This document shows positions 33,233 to 47,006 of a DNA stretch of 64,000 bases, piece by piece. Every line of letters begins with the position of its first letter. Within the stretch, counting starts at the first letter, position 1. Source of the stretch: Bacillota bacterium (lineage in GTDB: Bacteria > Bacillota > Sulfobacillia > JAJYWN01 > JAJZPE01); the NCBI GenBank assembly GCA_021787335.1, contig JAJYMC010000044.1, positions 76,137 through 140,136 of the forward strand, written 5' to 3'. The position numbers and the translations under genes are program-made. The notes below the pieces were generated by a model that was not told where the DNA came from, did not search any database, and saw only the letters and a program-made list of their open reading frames with translations.

Positions 33233-33892
33233 ATGACGAAACTCATCGACCTGACGCTGGATCTCACCGAGGGAATGCCGGTGTTCCCGGTACCCTGGTA
33301 CCCGAAGCCCGACTTCAAGGCCGTCCTCACGCCGGAGGTGGACCCGGCCGGACGGACGGCGAGCCGGGCGGTGGTCTTCATGCACGCCGGGACCCATGTC
33401 GACGCGCCCAAGCATTTCTTCCACGAACGCGGGACCATTGAGCAGGTGCCCCTGGAGGTCCTGTGCGGGACGACGACGGTCATCGACATGTACGGCAAGA
33501 AGAACCTCGAGCCGATCACGGCGGCCGACCTCGAGCGGGCCTGTCCGAAACCGGTCCGGCGGGGCAACCGGGTCATCATCCGGACCGGCTACACGACGAA
33601 GTTCTGGGGCCGGGAAGACTACTTCCAGGTCTCCCCGTACCTGGCCGCCGACGCCGGCGAGTGGCTGGTCAAGCAAGGCTTCTCGCTGGTCGCCATTGAC
33701 TTCCAGACCGACAAGCCGGGCGACAACACCTTTCCCGTGCACAAGATCCTGCTGGGCAACGGGGTGATCATCGTCGAGTACCTGACTGACGTCGAGAAGA
33801 TCACCCGCCCAGAAGTGACCATGTATACGCTGCCACTCCGCTTCAGGGGCCTCGAGGCTTCGCCGGCCCGGGTGGTCGTGGTGGAAGACTAA
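33233..33892 (+). CDS. Cyclase family protein (kynurenine formamidase-like)
   Basis: This 219-residue protein has the cyclase-family metal motif HAGTHVDAPKHF at about residues 51-62 and an opening LIDLTLDLTEGMPVFP. The family includes arylformamidase, isatin hydrolase and other Mn- or Zn-dependent hydrolases of cyclic or formyl amides. In this operon it could open a ring produced by the PreA-like reductase; that is inference. The ATG has AAGGAGG upstream. Confidence 0.87.
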   Translation: MTKLIDLTLDLTEGMPVFPVPWYPKPDFKAVLTPEVDPAGRTASRAVVFMHAGTHVDAPKHFFHERGTIEQVPLEVLCGTTTVIDMYGKKNLEPITAADLERACPKPVRRGNRVIIRTGYTTKFWGREDYFQVSPYLAADAGEWLVKQGFSLVAIDFQTDKPGDNTFPVHKILLGNGVIIVEYLTDVEKITRPEVTMYTLPLRFRGLEASPARVVVVED

Positions 33893-33914: not shown

Positions 33915-35060
33915 ATGGACTTTCAGTTCACGCCGGAGCAGGAGATGCTCCGCACGGCCGCCCGCGAGTTCGCCGAGAACGAGGTGGCCCCGCGAGTAGC
34001 CGAGATGGAGAAGACCGGCCGGTTCCCGATGGAACTCATCAAACCGATGGGTGAGGCCGGCTTCTTCGGGGTGACGATCCCCGTGGAATATGGCGGGCTG
34101 GGGTTGGGCTACGTCGCCCGGCTCATCCTACTCGAAGAGATCGGCCGGGTCTCGGCCGCTCTGGCCATGGCGCTTCAGGTCTTCCACCTCGGCGTCGAGC
34201 CCATCGTCGCTTTCGGCAGCGAGGAACAGAAACGGCGGCTCTTGCCGCCCCTCGCCAGGGGCGAGCGGCTGGCCACCGTGGCCGTGACCGAGGCCGGCGG
34301 CGGTTCCGACCCGTCGTCGACGAAGACCGTGGCCCGCTTCGAGCAACGGTCGGAGGGCGACGGCTACGTCCTCGACGGTCGCAAGGTCTTCATCACCAAC
34401 GCCCACCTGGCCGACGTCCAGGTGGTCCTGACCAAGACCAAGGACGAGCCGAAGGAGTTCACCGCCTTCATCGTCGAGCGGGGGATGGCCGGTTTCAAGC
34501 CCGGCCGTGAGGAGCACAAGCTCGGCCTCCTCGGTTGCGACACCGGCGAGGTCATCTTCGAAGGCTGCTTCGTGCCGGTGGCCAACCGCCTCGGCAACGA
34601 GGGCGACGGCCTGAAGACCGCCCTCAAGGCGATCAGCGAGGCCGGTCGGTCGGGCATGGCCGGGGTCTCCCTGGGCCTGCTCCGGGCGTGCGTCGAGACG
34701 GCCGGCGCATACGCCGCCAAGCGCGAGGTCTCGGGGCGGCCGCTCAATCGCTATCAGGGCATCCAGTGGAAGCTGGCCGACCTGGTCACCGACCGCGACG
34801 CCGCAACCCTTCTTTCTTACCGGGCCTGCTGGCTGAAGGATCAGGGGAAGCGGTGTGACGTCGAGATGGCCACGGCCAAGTACTTCGCCAGCGAGGCGGC
34901 CATCCGCGCGGCCAAGCTGGCGGCCGAGGTCCTCGGCGGCTACGGTTACATGGAAGAGTTCGCGACCCAGCGATATCTGAGAGATCGGCAGTTGATGATC
35001 CCCTCGGCGGGGACGTCGGACGTCATGCGGATGGTCATCGCCCGCGCGGCCACGCCCTGA
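33915..35060 (+). CDS. Acyl-CoA dehydrogenase-family protein lacking the usual catalytic Glu
   Basis: This 381-residue flavoprotein has the acyl-CoA dehydrogenase fold: VTEAGGGSDPSST near residue 124, GRKVFITNAHLADV, and the C-terminal LGGYGYMEEFATQRYLRDRQLM. Two positions can carry the catalytic base in this family. The short-chain-type position, normally YEGTSE, reads SAGTSD here (Ala365). The isovaleryl/long-chain-type position, normally ERL, reads GRS (Gly244). Both glutamates are absent, so it may use another base or catalyse a different reaction. EtfB and EtfA genes follow directly, so it probably passes electrons to ETF. Confidence 0.88.
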   Translation: MDFQFTPEQEMLRTAAREFAENEVAPRVAEMEKTGRFPMELIKPMGEAGFFGVTIPVEYGGLGLGYVARLILLEEIGRVSAALAMALQVFHLGVEPIVAFGSEEQKRRLLPPLARGERLATVAVTEAGGGSDPSSTKTVARFEQRSEGDGYVLDGRKVFITNAHLADVQVVLTKTKDEPKEFTAFIVERGMAGFKPGREEHKLGLLGCDTGEVIFEGCFVPVANRLGNEGDGLKTALKAISEAGRSGMAGVSLGLLRACVETAGAYAAKREVSGRPLNRYQGIQWKLADLVTDRDAATLLSYRACWLKDQGKRCDVEMATAKYFASEAAIRAAKLAAEVLGGYGYMEEFATQRYLRDRQLMIPSAGTSDVMRMVIARAATP

Positions 35061-35080: not shown

Positions 35081-35893
35081 TTGGAGCCCTTCACCATCAT
35101 CGTTTTGATCAAGCCCGTACCGGACCCGCGGAAGTCCCGCGGGTCCGTGGCCATTGACCCGGAACGGAAGACCGTCCGGCGCCAGGGCGTCCCCCTGACC
35201 ATCAACCTGGCCGACCGCTACGCCCTGGAGGCCGCGGTGGCCCTGAAGGCCTCCGGTGTGGGGAAGGTCGTCGCGGTGGCCATGGGTCCGCCCGACGCCG
35301 AGGGCGCGGCGCGCGAAGCGCTGGCCATCGGGGCTGATGAAGCCTATCTGCTGAGTGACCGGCTCCTGGCCGGCTCGGACGCCGTGGCCACGGCCCGGGC
35401 GCTGGCCGCCGCGTGCCGTCGGGTCGGCTTCGGGGCCGTCTTCGCCGGGGCTGAGAGTTCGGACGCCGGCACCGGGCTGGTCGGCCCGACCATGGCCGCC
35501 CTGCTCGGTCTGCCACACGTGCCGCACTGCCGGTCGATCGCGCTTGGCGACCGGGGGTTCGAGGCCGAGGTCCGCGTGGATGGCCGCGAGGGGAGGGTCA
35601 GGGCAGGCCTGCCGGCCCTGGTGACCTTCGACCGGCTCGACCGGCCGCCCAAATCGCCCGGGTTCGCCGGGGTGGTCGCGGCCAGGAGCAAACCCTTCAC
35701 CGTCTGGACCGCCGGGGACGTGGCCCTGCGCGCGGACGAGGCCGGCATGGCCGGTTCCCCGACCGTCGTCCGCGAGGTGCGCCCGGCTTCCACCGCCAAG
35801 CGGGCGGTCATCATCGGCGGCGACCCCGAGGAAGTCGCGACCAGGGTCCTGGCCGTACTCGCCGAGAAGGGAGTGCTCTCCGATGGCCGGTGA
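35081..35893 (+). CDS. etfB: Electron transfer flavoprotein beta subunit
   Basis: This 270-residue protein is the ETF beta subunit, with IIVLIKPVPDP at the start, NLADRYALEAAVALK near residue 45 and the central AGAESSDAGTGLVGPTMAALLGLP. It forms a dimer with EtfA and carries electrons from acyl-CoA dehydrogenases. The TTG start at 35081 has AGGAGG upstream. It overlaps etfA by 11 bases. I see no Fe-S domain or extra FAD module that would directly show bifurcation. Confidence 0.9.
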   Translation: MEPFTIIVLIKPVPDPRKSRGSVAIDPERKTVRRQGVPLTINLADRYALEAAVALKASGVGKVVAVAMGPPDAEGAAREALAIGADEAYLLSDRLLAGSDAVATARALAAACRRVGFGAVFAGAESSDAGTGLVGPTMAALLGLPHVPHCRSIALGDRGFEAEVRVDGREGRVRAGLPALVTFDRLDRPPKSPGFAGVVAARSKPFTVWTAGDVALRADEAGMAGSPTVVREVRPASTAKRAVIIGGDPEEVATRVLAVLAEKGVLSDGR

Positions 35894-36908
35894 CATCTGG
35901 GTGATGGTCCGGATGAAGGACGGTAAGGCGGATCGGGCCGCCCGCGACGCCATGGCCATCGCCTCGGCGATGGCCGCCAGGACCGGCGGACAGGTGGCGG
36001 CGTGGGTCTTCGGGCCTGAAGGGGAGGCGCCGGCCGCGGCGTCGGAGGGCTTCGGCGGGTATGCGCCGGACCGCCTATACGTCTGTCCGCTGGGGGCCGG
36101 GGAGGATGGACCGGCCGGGCTCGGCGACGCCCTGTCGGGGCGACGGGCGGCGGTGGCCATGCTTGCGCGGACTGAAGTAGCGGAGGTCGGGGCCGTCCTC
36201 GTGCCGGAAGGGCAGCTCGCCCTCGACGCGGCCGCCGGCCTGGCCGTGGCCCTCGGAGGGGCGGTCGTGGCCCACTGCCGGGCGGTCGAGTGGTCCGGTC
36301 GGGAATGGTTGTACCTGGTGCCGGCCTTCGGCGGGCTGGCGGCCATCGCCTGCCCGGGGTCGGGGCCGCAGGTCATCTCCCTGGTCGCCGGGGCCGGGCT
36401 GGTGGGCGAGCCCGCGGAAGGCAGGACCAAGGCTCCGGAGGTCATCGCCGTCCAGGCGCCCGCGCCCTCGGACCGGGATCCGGTGGTCGCGGGAGGCCCG
36501 TCGCCCGTGGCCCTTCCGTCGGACGCCCTGGAGACCGCCCGCCTCGTCGTGGCCGGCGGCATGGGGGCCGGCGACCCTTCAGGATGGCGTCTCATCAGCG
36601 ACTTCGCCGCATCCCTGGGAGCGGCCCTGGGGGCCACCCGCCCGGCCGTCGATGAGGGCTGGGCCCCGGCCGAGGCGATGATCGGCCAGAGCGGGAAGCG
36701 GGTCGAGCCGGAGGTCCTCATCTCCGTGGGAGTCTCCGGTGACCTTCAGCACCTCGTGGGCGTGGGCGAGGGAACGACGGTCATCGCCGTCAACAGCGAC
36801 CCGGACGCGCCCATCTTCGGCCGGGCCGACCACGGGGTGGTCGGCGACTTCCGGCGGTTCCTGCCGGCCATCAGCCGCCGGGTCAAGTCCGGTCCGGCCG
36901 ACGGGTGA
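35883..36908 (+). CDS. etfA: Electron transfer flavoprotein alpha subunit
   Basis: This 341-residue FAD-binding subunit has the C-terminal ETF signature IGQSGKRVEPEVLISVGVSGDLQHLVGVG followed by AVNSDPDAPIFGRADHGVVGDF. The N-terminal half is Ala/Gly-rich and less conserved. It is the last gene before a new promoter at 36960 and so closes the run that begins with livK. The ATG start overlaps the etfB end. Confidence 0.9.
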   Translation: MAGDIWVMVRMKDGKADRAARDAMAIASAMAARTGGQVAAWVFGPEGEAPAAASEGFGGYAPDRLYVCPLGAGEDGPAGLGDALSGRRAAVAMLARTEVAEVGAVLVPEGQLALDAAAGLAVALGGAVVAHCRAVEWSGREWLYLVPAFGGLAAIACPGSGPQVISLVAGAGLVGEPAEGRTKAPEVIAVQAPAPSDRDPVVAGGPSPVALPSDALETARLVVAGGMGAGDPSGWRLISDFAASLGAALGATRPAVDEGWAPAEAMIGQSGKRVEPEVLISVGVSGDLQHLVGVGEGTTVIAVNSDPDAPIFGRADHGVVGDFRRFLPAISRRVKSGPADG

Positions 36909-37082: not shown

Positions 37083-38228
37083 GTGGGCCATTACATCTTC
37101 TCCGATGAACACGAGCAGCTTCGAAAGTCCGTCCGCCGGTTCGTCGAGCGTGAGTTGGCTCCCTACGCCGACCAGTGGGAGGCGGCGGGGGGGTTCCCCG
37201 ACGAGGTCTTCCGCAAGCTGGGCGCTCAGGGCTTCCTGGGTCTCCGGTACCCCGAGGAATACGGCGGCCAGGGCGGCGACTACTATACCGCCATCGTCCT
37301 GGCCGAGGAACTGGTCGGCGCGAAGGCCGGGGGCGTGGGCACGGCCGTGGAGGTCCACACGGAGATGGCCACGCCGCCGATCCTCAAGTTCGGCACCGAC
37401 GATCAGAAGCAGCGTTTCCTGGTCCCGGCGATCAAGGGCGAGAAGATAAGCGCCCTGGCCATCACCGAACCCGAGGCGGGCTCGGACGTGGCCGCCATCC
37501 GGACGATGGCCGTCCGCGACGGGGACGAGTACGTCCTGAACGGGTCGAAACGCTTCATCACCAACGGTTGCCGGGCCGACTTCGCCGTCGTGGTCACCCG
37601 GACCGCGAAGGAAGAACACTGGGCCGGGCTGACCCTTTTCATCGTCGAGAAGGGCACGCCCGGCTTCACCGTGGCCAAGAAGCTCGAAAAGGTCGGGTTG
37701 CACAGCTCGGACACGGCGGAACTCGTCTTCGAGGACTGCCACGTGCCGGCCGCCAACCTCCTCGGCCAGGAGAACCAGGGCTTCTATCACATCATGTGGG
37801 AGCTCCAGGGGGAGCGGCTGATCGGCGCGGCCGGGGCCGTGGCCGCCGGCCAGCGGGCCCTGGACCTCGCCATCGAATACGGCACGCAGCGCCGGCAATT
37901 CGGGCGCTCGGTGGCCAAGTTCCAGGCCAACCGGCATCGGTTGGCGGAGCACGCCACGGCCCTTGAGGCGGCGCGGCAGATGGTCTACGCCACCGCCTGG
38001 CGGGTTCAGAACGGCGAGTACCCGGTCAAGGAGATCTCGATGGCCAAGGTCTTCTCCACGCGGGTCGCCTTCGAGGCCGCCGACTTCGCCCTGCAGCTGC
38101 ACGGTGGCAGCGGCTACATGATGGAGAGCGAGATTCAGAGGCTCTGGCGGGACACCCGAGCCTCCCGCATCGCCGCTGGGACCGACGAGATCATGCTCGA
38201 GGTCATCGCCAAGGAACTGGGTCTCTAA
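37083..38228 (+). CDS. Acyl-CoA dehydrogenase (long-chain/isovaleryl-type active site)
   Basis: This 381-residue flavoenzyme has ITEPEAGSDVAAIRT near residue 125, GSKRFITNGCRAD, and QLHGGSGYMMESEIQRLWRDTRASRIAAGTDEI at the end. The catalytic Glu lies in ELQGERL (Glu244), as in isovaleryl-CoA and long-chain dehydrogenases, while the YEGT position is Ala, which fits that subclass. It introduces a 2,3-double bond into an acyl-CoA. The GTG start at 37083 follows GGGAGGG. It is the first gene of the operon. Confidence 0.92.
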   Translation: MGHYIFSDEHEQLRKSVRRFVERELAPYADQWEAAGGFPDEVFRKLGAQGFLGLRYPEEYGGQGGDYYTAIVLAEELVGAKAGGVGTAVEVHTEMATPPILKFGTDDQKQRFLVPAIKGEKISALAITEPEAGSDVAAIRTMAVRDGDEYVLNGSKRFITNGCRADFAVVVTRTAKEEHWAGLTLFIVEKGTPGFTVAKKLEKVGLHSSDTAELVFEDCHVPAANLLGQENQGFYHIMWELQGERLIGAAGAVAAGQRALDLAIEYGTQRRQFGRSVAKFQANRHRLAEHATALEAARQMVYATAWRVQNGEYPVKEISMAKVFSTRVAFEAADFALQLHGGSGYMMESEIQRLWRDTRASRIAAGTDEIMLEVIAKELGL

Positions 38229-38259: not shown

Positions 38260-39456
38260 TTGTTCCTCGACGGGGTGAAAGTGCTTGATTTCTCCCGGTT
38301 GCTGCCCGGTGGCGTGGCCTCGGCCATGCTGACGGCGCTGGGGGCTGAGGTGGTCAAGGTCGAGGAGCCCTCGGCCGGCGACTACATGCGGTCGATGCCG
38401 CCGTTCGGGCCGCGGGGGAACGTCTACTTCGAGCATCTGCACCACGGGCAGCGGAGCCTGGCGGTGGACCTCCGGGACGCCCGCGGGCGGGAGGTCCTGA
38501 CCGCCCTCGCCGCCGACGCCGATGTCGTGTTGGAAAGCTTCCGCCCCGGGGTCATGGCCCGCCTTGGGCTCGGCTACGAGGCCCTGGCGGCGGCCAACCC
38601 GCGGCTCATCTACTGCTCACTGACGGCCTACGGACAGCCGGGCGACGCGATTGACGCCGACCGCTCAGAGGCCGGCCATGACCTGAACATCATGGCCCTT
38701 TCGGGGCTTTTGAGCTACCTCACCGACGGGGCCGGCCGCGTTTTGCCGCCGCCGCTACAACTGGCGGACGTGGCCGCGGGCGGGATGCTGGCCGTCACCG
38801 CCATCCTGGCGGCTTTGGTCGAGCGGTTCCGGACGGGCCGCGGACGCCGTCTGGACGTGGCCATGCTGGACGGGCTACGCGTCCTGGGTGTGCTGCAACG
38901 GGTCGAGGGGGCGGCGACCGGCCATCACCCGGCCCACGAGGAGTTGCCCCTGGCCGGCAACCTGGCGTGCTACAACGTCTACACGACGGCGGACGGGGGA
39001 GCGATGGCCCTCGGCGCCCTGGAGCCGAAGTTCTGGGCGGCCTTCTGTCAGTGCGCCGGCCGCCCCGACTGGGTCGCCCGGCAGTTCGAACCGCCGCCCG
39101 GCCAGGCCGCGCTCATCGCTGAAGTCGTCGCCTTCTTCGCCTCCCGCCCCAGGGCCGAGTGGGAGGAGTTCGGTCGCCGGGGTGACTGCTGCCTGAGCCC
39201 GGTCCTGTCACCGGCCGAGGCGGCCGTCCACCCGCTGACGCGCGGCCGGCCCAGGGACGACGCCTTCCCGGTGGCGGCCGACCCTCCGACGGCGGCCCCA
39301 GACGCGGCTTCGGCCGCGGCGTCCGGCGCCCTGCCGCCCGCGCCCGCCCTGGGCCGCGACACGGCGGCCGTCCTGCGGGGCCTGGGTTACTCGGACGATC
39401 AAATCAAGCTCTTGGCCGAAGCGGGCGTCGTCCGCCTCGGGGAGGGGAGACCGTGA
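38260..39456 (+). CDS. CaiB/BaiF CoA-transferase family protein, alpha-methylacyl-CoA racemase type
   Basis: This 398-residue family III protein has GHDLNIMALSGLLSYL with His140 and LADVAAGGM with Asp170. The 30-residue spacing between them equals that of the His/Asp catalytic pair in alpha-methylacyl-CoA racemase (126 and 156 in the mycobacterial enzyme), so racemase activity is more likely than CoA transfer. This would prepare 2-methyl-branched acyl-CoAs for beta-oxidation. Residues 335-375 are Ala/Pro-rich and variable. The TTG start is supported by an upstream GGGGG. It overlaps the TetR gene by four bases. Confidence 0.87.
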   Translation: MFLDGVKVLDFSRLLPGGVASAMLTALGAEVVKVEEPSAGDYMRSMPPFGPRGNVYFEHLHHGQRSLAVDLRDARGREVLTALAADADVVLESFRPGVMARLGLGYEALAAANPRLIYCSLTAYGQPGDAIDADRSEAGHDLNIMALSGLLSYLTDGAGRVLPPPLQLADVAAGGMLAVTAILAALVERFRTGRGRRLDVAMLDGLRVLGVLQRVEGAATGHHPAHEELPLAGNLACYNVYTTADGGAMALGALEPKFWAAFCQCAGRPDWVARQFEPPPGQAALIAEVVAFFASRPRAEWEEFGRRGDCCLSPVLSPAEAAVHPLTRGRPRDDAFPVAADPPTAAPDAASAAASGALPPAPALGRDTAAVLRGLGYSDDQIKLLAEAGVVRLGEGRP

Positions 39457-44933: not shown

Positions 44934-46817
44934 CTAGGTCACCGGGTGCAGCTCGTGCTGGTGCCGGTGGGAGACCTCAGCCCGGCCGCCATAAAGGTCG
45001 TCGGCGATGTCGTCCAGGCCCAGCTGCTCAAGACGCTTCTGGCTGGGTTTGCCGGTGGTCAGATCCCAGTCCATGACCTCGAAGTAGTCCTCGACCAGCC
45101 GCTCGATGTCCACGGTGACGCCGGCCAGCGGCCCTTCGGTGAGCGGGGGACGCCCGACGATGCGTCCGGGGATGCGCCATTCCCGGGAGTTGACTCCTTC
45201 CCTGAGGTTGAAGGCCTGGCGGAGGTTCTCGATCCGCTCGCCGATGCTGAGCAGCTCGCCCATGCTCCAGTCGCGGCCGGTGACCGCGGTCAGGAAGGCC
45301 GGCATGGAGTGGTAGTCGATGCTCAGGAAGGAGAACATGCAGATCCCGACGTTGTTGACGACGTGCATGAGGTTGGACATGGCCCGGTGGTCCTCGCCGC
45401 GACCCTGGAAGTTGCGGCGGTCGCGTTGCGGGATATCGAACCCGGGCGGGACCATGCCCTCCGAGCCCTGGGTGTGGCGGGCCGGGGTGGGGTCGGTGGC
45501 GTAGGTCGTGCCCATCGCCGGGTCGAAGCGCGGGTCGTGCATCGGCACTTCCTGACCGCCCACCTGGATGGCGTACTTCTCGGCCCCCCGTCCTATCTTC
45601 TCGGCGGCGCGCTTGGTGCCGTCGGCCAGGATGGCGCCGAAGCCCTCGCGGCGGCCCATCTTCTCGAGGAGCTTGATGATCGTTGCGTGGTCGCCCCAGC
45701 GCAGCTCGAGGCCGTCTGTGTCCTTCTGGTCGATGATCCCTTCTTCGAAGAGGTTGATGGCGAAAGCGATGGTGCTCCCGGCCGAGATGGTGTCCAGGCC
45801 GTAGAGGTTACAGAGGTGGTTGGCCTTGATGATCGACTCCAGGTTGTCGTTGCCGCACATGGCCCCGAAGGTGCCGAGGGTCTCATATTCGGGCTTGTGG
45901 GTCTGATCGACCTTGTAGGGCCCGTCGGTCACGGAGACGATGCCGCCGCAACCGATGGGGCAGCGCCAGCAGCCGTAGCCCTTGATCTCATGCTTGTGGA
46001 GGGCGTCGCCGCCGATCTTGGCCGCCCCCGGCAGGGCCTGGGTGCCGGCCGCCGACCAGTTCCTGATCGGGGTGTCGCCGCCGGCCACCAGGGCCTCGAC
46101 CAGCCCCGCGGTCCCGAAGTTGTGGAGGACGTCGTAAAGCGGTCCGCCCAGGCGGGCCAGGTAGAACTGGCGGAGTTCGGCGGCCTTCTCCGGGTCGGCC
46201 AGGGGGATCTTCTTCGTCCCGCGGGCGGCGACGGCCTTGAGGTTCTTCGAGCCCATCACCGCGCCGAGACCTGAGCGCCCGGCGGCCCGCCCGAGGTCGT
46301 TGATGACGCAGGCGATGAGGGACTTCTGCTCACCGGCCGGGCCGATGCAGGCGACGGCCGTGTCCTTGCCCATCTCCTTGCGAATGATGCCCTCGGTCTC
46401 ATGGGTGTCGAGCCCCCACAGGCTGTCGGCCTCGCGGATCTCGGCCCGCCCGTCTTCGATGGCCAGATAGACCGGGCGCGAGGCCTTGCCGGTGACGATG
46501 ACCCCGTCATAGCCGGCCATCTTGAGGACGGGTCCGAAATCGCCGCCGCTGTTGGCGTCGCCCCATCCCCCGGTCAGTGGGGATCTGCCGACCGCCTCAT
46601 ACCTCGAGCTGACGATGGCCGGGGTCCCGGTCAAAGGTCCCGTGATGAGGCCAAAGACATTCTCCGGGCCGAGCGGGTCGGCGCCGGCCGGGATGAGGTC
46701 GTAAAGGAGCCGCGCCCCGATCCCATATCCGCCGAGGTACTTCAGAAGGAAGTCATCGTCGAGGGGTTCTTCGCGGGTCCGTCCCTTGGTCAAATCGGCG
46801 TAGAGAAGCTTTCCCAT
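44934..46817 (-). CDS. Aldehyde:ferredoxin oxidoreductase family protein
   Basis: This 627-residue tungsten/molybdenum bis-pterin enzyme oxidises aldehydes to acids, reducing ferredoxin. The 4Fe-4S ligands are visible as Cys283, Cys286, Cys290 (CWRCPIGC) and Cys493 (NNVGICMF). Other family marks are GKLLYADLT, YEAVGRSPLTGGWGDANSGG and GRAAGRSGLGAVMGSKNLKAV. The ATG at 46817 was chosen over 46832 because GGAGGG sits just in front of it. No molybdopterin or tungstate-transport gene is near, and no MoaD-like partner accompanies it. It may detoxify aldehydes or feed electrons to ferredoxin-dependent steps. Confidence 0.94.
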   Translation of the reverse strand: MGKLLYADLTKGRTREEPLDDDFLLKYLGGYGIGARLLYDLIPAGADPLGPENVFGLITGPLTGTPAIVSSRYEAVGRSPLTGGWGDANSGGDFGPVLKMAGYDGVIVTGKASRPVYLAIEDGRAEIREADSLWGLDTHETEGIIRKEMGKDTAVACIGPAGEQKSLIACVINDLGRAAGRSGLGAVMGSKNLKAVAARGTKKIPLADPEKAAELRQFYLARLGGPLYDVLHNFGTAGLVEALVAGGDTPIRNWSAAGTQALPGAAKIGGDALHKHEIKGYGCWRCPIGCGGIVSVTDGPYKVDQTHKPEYETLGTFGAMCGNDNLESIIKANHLCNLYGLDTISAGSTIAFAINLFEEGIIDQKDTDGLELRWGDHATIIKLLEKMGRREGFGAILADGTKRAAEKIGRGAEKYAIQVGGQEVPMHDPRFDPAMGTTYATDPTPARHTQGSEGMVPPGFDIPQRDRRNFQGRGEDHRAMSNLMHVVNNVGICMFSFLSIDYHSMPAFLTAVTGRDWSMGELLSIGERIENLRQAFNLREGVNSREWRIPGRIVGRPPLTEGPLAGVTVDIERLVEDYFEVMDWDLTTGKPSQKRLEQLGLDDIADDLYGGRAEVSHRHQHELHPVT

Positions 46818-47006
46818 GTACCCTCCGTCCATCGATCAACCACCCCCAGAAAGAGTGCCCGTTGGCCTGCCCGGTACGAGCCGGATGTCGATGGTATTCT
46901 CCCACCGACGGTCGGCGGCGTATTCCGGTGGTGGCTTGCTCGGCGGCGCGGTGGGCACACTTGAGCTTGGCGGCGAGCCGCCGGCGCACAAAGGCACGAT
47001 GGGGGG

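Follow-up and report, generated by a model that had tools for sequence, protein, structure and literature searches.

The window, a stretch of 64,000 nucleotides from a Bacillota genome, encodes a protein of the acyl-CoA dehydrogenase (ACAD) fold that lacks the glutamates of both known catalytic-base positions. The textbook mechanism of ACADs depends on one glutamate, whose carboxylate takes the alpha-proton. The loss at both sites is beyond chance, as six paralogs in the same genome keep a Glu while orthologs elsewhere share the loss, and it is a trait of one conserved subfamily, not an isolated mutation. Because both base sites have been lost in a conserved family that is nearly always found beside electron-carrier genes, the reaction is probably started in a different way. 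Our best explanation, held tentatively and with somewhat less than even confidence, is that the protein is an ETF-coupled, FAD-dependent oxidoreductase of acyl-CoA type, in which the charge on the alpha-carbon would come from the substrate; on indirect evidence, the group most likely to leave is CO2. Annotation of such proteins as plain "acyl-CoA dehydrogenase" is unsafe, and the subfamily, with at least 22 genomes in the phylum of the window, offers a compact protein set for testing the need of a catalytic base.

Fold and catalytic-base positions

The gene, the codons discussed below and the second ACAD gene of the window are as follows:

33915–35060 (+): ACAD-fold protein without both known catalytic-base glutamates, 381 aa (open reading frame, Pfam, alignments and model)
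34635–34637 (+): codon of Ser241, the one-residue insertion of the subfamily before the helix-G Arg245 (in all 24 subfamily rows and in none of 47 rows of Glu365-type ACADs)
34644–34646 (+): codon of Gly244, which is Glu in ACADs of the isovaleryl/long-chain type (alignments)
34926–34928 (+): codon of Glu338, Asp or Glu in 24 of 24 subfamily rows and Gln in 46 of 47 Glu365 rows
35007–35009 (+): codon of Ala365, the position of the YEGT-motif Glu in ACADs of the short/medium-chain type (alignments)
37083–38228 (+): second ACAD with Glu244 (GERL), the contrast case (alignment)

The reading frame of the target protein is fully open, and its N-terminal, middle and C-terminal ACAD domains (PF02771, PF02770 and PF00441) all score above their cut-offs, so that the protein is full-length. 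An AlphaFold2 model built with 24 related sequences (pLDDT 94.7, pTM 0.92) resembles butyryl/short-chain acyl-CoA dehydrogenases along its entire length when compared with solved structures (Z 56–57); the enzymes of this type considered here, MmgC (5lnx), that of A. fermentans (4l1f) and C. difficile Bcd (5ol2), are 38–41% identical to the target and have the same residues aligned with the FAD and CoA contacts. These residues, T125, S131, T161, R245, R270 and G366-T367, are all present in the target and presumably have the FAD/CoA roles of their counterparts in MCAD (T136, S142, T168, R256, R281 and G377-T378). As for a more specific assignment, each of the NCBIfam models listed for the protein scores below its own cut-off, the best being that of acryloyl-CoA reductase AcrC (NF042972), at 338.6 bits where the cut-off is 640.

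Alignment with relatives shows Ala at position 365 (IPSAGTSD) and Gly at position 244 (AGRS). HMMER alignment to solved ACADs places the YEGT Glu of 5lnx opposite Ala365 and the isovaleryl-type ER Glu of 4o5m opposite Gly244, the query having one extra residue just before the latter. The target thus has neither the Glu376-type feature of short/medium-chain enzymes (Glu in YEGT) nor the Glu254-type feature of isovaleryl/long-chain enzymes (Glu before the helix-G Arg). A sequence-only reading of this DNA had already assigned Ala365 and Gly244 to the two usual base sites, and several alignments agree with it; none places a Glu at either site, and their concordance rules out a Glu hidden through misalignment. 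The contrast that it drew with the second dehydrogenase is confirmed as well, since upon alignment the latter keeps Glu244 in GERL and has Ala in AAGTDE. Isovaleryl-CoA dehydrogenase-type enzymes (4o5m, 1ivh and the second ACAD of the window) therefore resemble the target in having small residues instead of the YEGT Glu (AGTS/AGTD), but possess the helix-G Glu (ER) where the target has Gly244. Short-chain/butyryl-CoA dehydrogenases, on the other hand, have the YEGT Glu, whereas the subfamily mostly has Ala or Gly at that site, the insertion at 241 and mostly Pro363 replacing Ile. The window's genome contains seven ACAD matches to the target query, and each of the six others retains Glu at one or the other site.

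A conserved subfamily

The search for members used a profile built from nine relatives and covered 154 genomes of the class and 398 of the phylum. Members confirmed at the residue level are present in at least 10 of the 154 and at least 13 of the 398 genomes, the window's genome being included in both; these counts are lower bounds, because weaker matches were partly inspected and the cut-off of the phylum search was strict (1e-128). Five more of the 18 genomes listed by the phylum search yielded Glu365-type ACADs alone. The working set comprises 24 rows from 22 genomes, divided into clade A (the window protein and eight others), clade B (12), clade C (two) and the protein of locus L134.

Neither base position carries an acid in 23 of the 24 rows, the exception being L134 with Asp365. 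Residue 365 is Ala in 11 rows, Gly in 11, Ser in one and Asp in one, and residue 244 is Gly in 23 rows and Ser in one (n = 24), with SAG, SGG, AGG and AAG as the motifs in place of YEG. The L134 member (L134/L155:7944-9110) has PADGT, its acid being either regained or retained, which makes it a natural contrast to the rest. Residues T125, E126, S131, R245, R270, G341, G366 and T367 are found in all 24 rows, and residue 161 is Thr in 23 and Ser in one. Besides the insertion at 241, the subfamily is marked by Ile240 (24 of 24 rows, against Leu in 47 of 47 Glu365 rows) and Pro363 (21 of 24 rows, against Ile in 43 of 47). The subfamily also shares a gap of one residue following position 90, but this was rejected as a unique mark, since six of the 47 and 10 of 13 further Glu365 rows have it too.

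To examine how these sequences are related, a quick maximum-likelihood tree was built on 64 rows after removal of columns 241, 244 and 365. All 24 subfamily rows fall on one side of a branch of length 0.46 with SH-aLRT 100, in a tree computed without bootstrap and with the 40 other ACAD rows hand-picked from those at hand. Clade A has SH-aLRT 91, and within it the window protein is closest to those of L008, L072 and L070. Of 136 aligned rows in which both sites are occupied, 33 have no acid at either; the subfamily accounts for 26 of these, with three clade A genes counted twice, and seven are other ACADs, two of them in L015 and five divergent. The two in L015 (L015:6001-8314) form a tandem pair in a Chloroflexi MAG, have Ile/Gly and Ile/Ala at the base sites and belong to a different branch.

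The target and its nearest ortholog share 349 of 379 residues, with a dN of 0.046 and a dS of 0.462, and the gene is under purifying selection. Loss of the catalytic residues, taken alone, would fit a decaying or inactive copy, but the substitution rates, the full open frame and the occurrence of the same state across the subfamily speak against it, and we reject decay on the dN/dS values and the orthologs, leaving it a minimal probability. Open-access literature searches on ACADs without the catalytic Glu or base, or on gene clusters of this kind, returned no description of the subfamily, most subscription papers lying outside their scope. Among the statements of PMC8360864 on the ACADs of A. 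aromaticum is that many unassigned ones deviate from YEG.

Candidates for a replacement base

The search for another base covered ionisable residues conserved in the subfamily and positions that differ from those of Glu365-type ACADs. The sequence-only reading had suggested that the protein might use a base elsewhere or catalyse another flavin reaction. It stands in part: the first option is without support, because the aligned base-site segments of the 24 subfamily rows contain no acid that is both new and invariant. We regard a catalytic base moved elsewhere as doubtful; the candidates are Glu242, which the insertion at 241 would displace, His91, Glu95 and Glu338.

The insertion adjoins Glu242 in 24 of 24 rows, and residue 242 is acidic in 20 of them (Glu in 19, Asp in one); however, it is Arg, Lys or Gly in the remaining four and already Asp in 41 of 47 Glu365 rows, which weakens the case for a dedicated new base at this site. 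His is the commonest residue at position 91 (16 of the 23 rows with sequence, the others having Gln in two, Cys in two, and Val, Ala and Ser in one each), but is replaced by Gln in the 92% identical ortholog. Similarly, residue 95 is Asp or Glu in all eight clade A rows with sequence, but in just two of the 15 rows outside this clade. Residue 338, although acidic throughout the subfamily, is aligned with a Gln that we take to be an FAD contact. Residue 369 is Asp or Glu in nine of nine clade A rows and His in nine other rows of the subfamily. None of these sites is persuasive as a replacement base.

A precedent for a moved base is cyclohexenecarboxyl-CoA dehydrogenase, which reportedly lacks the Glu at C1 and has the same fold as the target (Z 54.4–54.7, the latter value for 7p9a). 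Its base is Asp91, the mechanism of which was reportedly described by Kung et al. in 2021. Residue 91 of the target is probably the corresponding site, yet none of the 23 subfamily rows with sequence has an acid at 91 or 92, the target having His91-Leu92. The NF043006 family, which is related to cyclohexenecarboxyl-CoA dehydrogenase, had no member over the cut-off in any of 299 genomes.

ETF genes, neighbourhoods and the possible reaction

The genes adjoining the two ACAD genes of the window are the following:

33233–33892 (+): putative cyclase-family hydrolase (PF04199), directly upstream of the target gene and likewise upstream in a genome of the same genus
35081–35893 (+): ETF beta subunit (PF01012), closest among solved chains to CarD of caffeyl-CoA reductase-Etf
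35883–36908 (+): ETF alpha subunit (PF00766 and PF01012), closest among solved chains to CarE
38260–39456 (+): class III CoA-transferase (PF02515), downstream

Further upstream, the window encodes an IlvD-type dehydratase (540 bits, below the model cut-off), an alcohol-dehydrogenase-type protein, a cupin, an HMGL-like enzyme and a protein that combines DHO_dh with Fer4 domains; a DUF362-like protein and a branched-chain-type ABC transporter were recognised there by eye. A gene resembling tungsten aldehyde:ferredoxin oxidoreductases (by eye; 44934–46832, –) lies near the operon, and its product has a 32% match to an AOR-like protein of L150.

Neighbourhood counts cover the 24 subfamily loci, a few of them truncated where a contig stops. 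An ETF beta/alpha pair adjoins the ACAD gene on the same strand in 23 of the 24, in the order ACAD-beta-alpha in 22 loci and beta-alpha-ACAD in L155, and only L153 has no ETF that could be found. The presence of the pair beside nearly all members suggests that electrons are transferred on balance, which a redox-neutral reaction would not require, and is the strongest argument against a redox-neutral flavin lyase. Such lyases do exist in the ACAD superfamily, namely gamma-butyrobetainyl-CoA TMA-lyase BbuA (PMC8364193) and 3-sulfinopropionyl-CoA desulfinase (PMC8360864), and BbuA of Emergencia timonensis is, like the target, an unorthodox flavoenzyme acting on a CoA ester. However, BbuA is redox-neutral, and the six-gene bbu cluster, as enumerated in PMC8364193, lists no ETF. 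We consider a lyase of this kind improbable.

The target may instead work mainly as a reductase, which we consider unlikely. In that case the flavin, reduced by the ETF, would transfer hydride to an enoyl-CoA at its beta-carbon. The enolate would be protonated by water or lose a gamma leaving group, making the glutamate unnecessary. The nearest solved chains of the window ETF fit this reaction. After CarD, the beta subunit is closest to LctB and to EtfB of the C. difficile Etf, and after CarE, the alpha subunit is closest to 7koe_B; we take CarD, LctB, C. difficile EtfB, CarE and 7koe_B to be parts of electron-bifurcating complexes, and by sequence likeness this suggests an ETF of the bifurcating type. 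Sequence likeness is no test of bifurcation, however, and the third-nearest chain to the alpha subunit, ranked above that of C. difficile, is human ETF alpha, which to our knowledge is not bifurcating. The position of AcrC as the best NCBIfam model likewise favours a reductase, but the score is unspecific, as the second, Glu244-type ACAD of the window scores higher on the same model (359.8 bits). Caffeyl-CoA reductase-Etf (CarCDE) and acryloyl-CoA reductase (AcrCAB) consist of an ACAD and ETF subunits, as encoded at the window locus; on the other hand, the target is far below the AcrC cut-off, and the known ETF-linked reductases of the ACAD fold, including the ACAD subunits of these two complexes, retain the catalytic Glu. 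Genes related to HpaB and 4-hydroxybutyryl-CoA dehydratase, found near six of the 24 loci, would fit gamma-substituted CoA esters as substrates, but the two HpaB_N genes of the window's genome are on other contigs.

The second ACAD, with Glu244 and 2 kb downstream, raises the question of a mixed tetramer in which the target would be a non-catalytic subunit, as mycobacterial ACAD-type enzymes of alpha2-beta2 composition exist. Against this arrangement, the residues aligned with FAD contacts are intact in the target, and the stretches searched around the other 23 loci, some of which end at contig ends, yielded no second ACAD; an obligate partnership was rejected on the latter grounds. We regard such a tetramer as very improbable, and a non-catalytic subunit or a dead copy, taken together, still have a slim chance.

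A carbanion supplied by the substrate is favoured because the small residues of the subfamily motif are of the kind found in benzylmalonyl-CoA dehydrogenase IaaF (GGG) and the desulfinase (AGG). According to PMC8360864, GGG replaces YEG in IaaF of Aromatoleum aromaticum, an enzyme proposed to start its reaction by losing the 2-carboxy group instead of by proton abstraction, and the desulfinase has the AGG motif. In the subfamily, hydride would still pass between the beta-carbon of the substrate and the flavin, and electrons would pass to or from the neighbouring ETF. In the least certain step, no carboxylate of the enzyme would take the alpha-proton, and the negative charge on the alpha-carbon would arise from the substrate itself, most likely through the loss of CO2 from (or, in reverse, its gain by) a 2-carboxyacyl-CoA. 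The small residues 363–366 (PSAG) might make room for the extra group.

The resemblance to IaaF has its limits. The target and all nine clade A rows have SAG instead of GGG, and IaaF is reported in PMC8360864 not to use ETF, whereas the subfamily is tied to it. IaaF was compared at the YEG motif and may keep the helix-G base. It is encoded in iaa operons, which include the B12 mutase IaaGH, whereas the neighbours of the target are without the iaa-operon set and no PF01642 mutase is on the window's contig, C58, the two in the genome being on contigs C34 and C65. The location of these mutases counts against the involvement of CO2.

Gene neighbourhoods elsewhere bear on the substrate-supplied charge in both directions. 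In its favour, mmdA-like carboxyltransferase genes lie near three of the 24 loci, a decarboxylase beta subunit is encoded at L154, and L121 has a protein with a domain of the methylmalonyl-CoA-mutase C-terminal type. The mmdA-like copies tested, those of L154 and L157, pass PF01039 and reach 898.4 and 813.8 against the mmdA model cut-off of 998.8. Against CO2, no mmdA-like gene was found in the stretches of 21 of the 24 loci, including the window (24001–48000). The Asp365 of L134 also counts against the explanation as a whole, and suggests that an acid at this position is tolerated. A narrower version, to which we give a low probability, is that the subfamily comprises ETF-linked reductive carboxylases/oxidative decarboxylases, in which the flavin-generated enolate, with no acid available to add or remove a proton at the alpha-carbon, would exchange CO2 instead of H+ (enoyl-CoA + CO2 + 2 e- <-> 2-carboxyacyl-CoA). 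Crotonyl-CoA carboxylase/reductase is NADPH-dependent, and the subfamily would then be its ETF/flavin-driven counterpart. If CO2 is indeed involved, the subfamily would be a new entry among the few known enoyl-CoA carboxylating/decarboxylating oxidoreductases.

The common core of the subfamily loci is the ACAD and the ETF, while the pathways differ, and the 24 neighbourhoods (4HBD-like, corrinoid, ectoine-like, PaaK) indicate no single one. PaaK-type CoA ligases, URO-D genes and genes of 2-oxoacid oxidoreductase alpha type (the last named by eye) are each found near four of the 24 loci; pterin-binding methyltransferase-type genes and IlvD-type dehydratases (in the window, L117 and L154) are each near three. 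The ACAD-ETF set of clade B in L154 is accompanied by genes for the beta subunit of a sodium-pump decarboxylase and for an alpha subunit of mmdA-like type, with a gamma-like gene recognised by eye (L154:9167-13436). In L147 and L149, the clade B sets lie in clusters that by eye resemble those for ectoine degradation, with a TRAP transporter, M24 and M20 hydrolases and an Asp/Glu-racemase-like protein. A recurrent protein with the look of a membrane transporter (by eye) is encoded at L121:8192-9598, L123:10898-12319, L124:13412-14797 and L150:14026-14499; the L121 copy, which was tested, matched nothing in Pfam or NCBIfam at E 0.001.

Paralogs of HpaB/4-hydroxybutyryl-CoA dehydratase are encoded beside clade B ACADs at L124:8262-9791, L146:9030-10490, L148:6404-7858 and L150:3967-5463, and all four, when aligned, share the stretch ANYRACIGACVAGQGD. 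The L146 paralog has Tyr, Ile and Val at the positions of His292, Tyr296 and Lys300 of 1u8v and keeps Cys299, and is possibly another enzyme of altered chemistry. By contrast, the protein encoded near a clade A ACAD at L118:4864-6366 scores 586 bits to 1u8v, keeps HRQSYGGCK and SCFQRC, and by these motifs is likely a genuine 4-hydroxybutyryl-CoA dehydratase/vinylacetyl-CoA isomerase.
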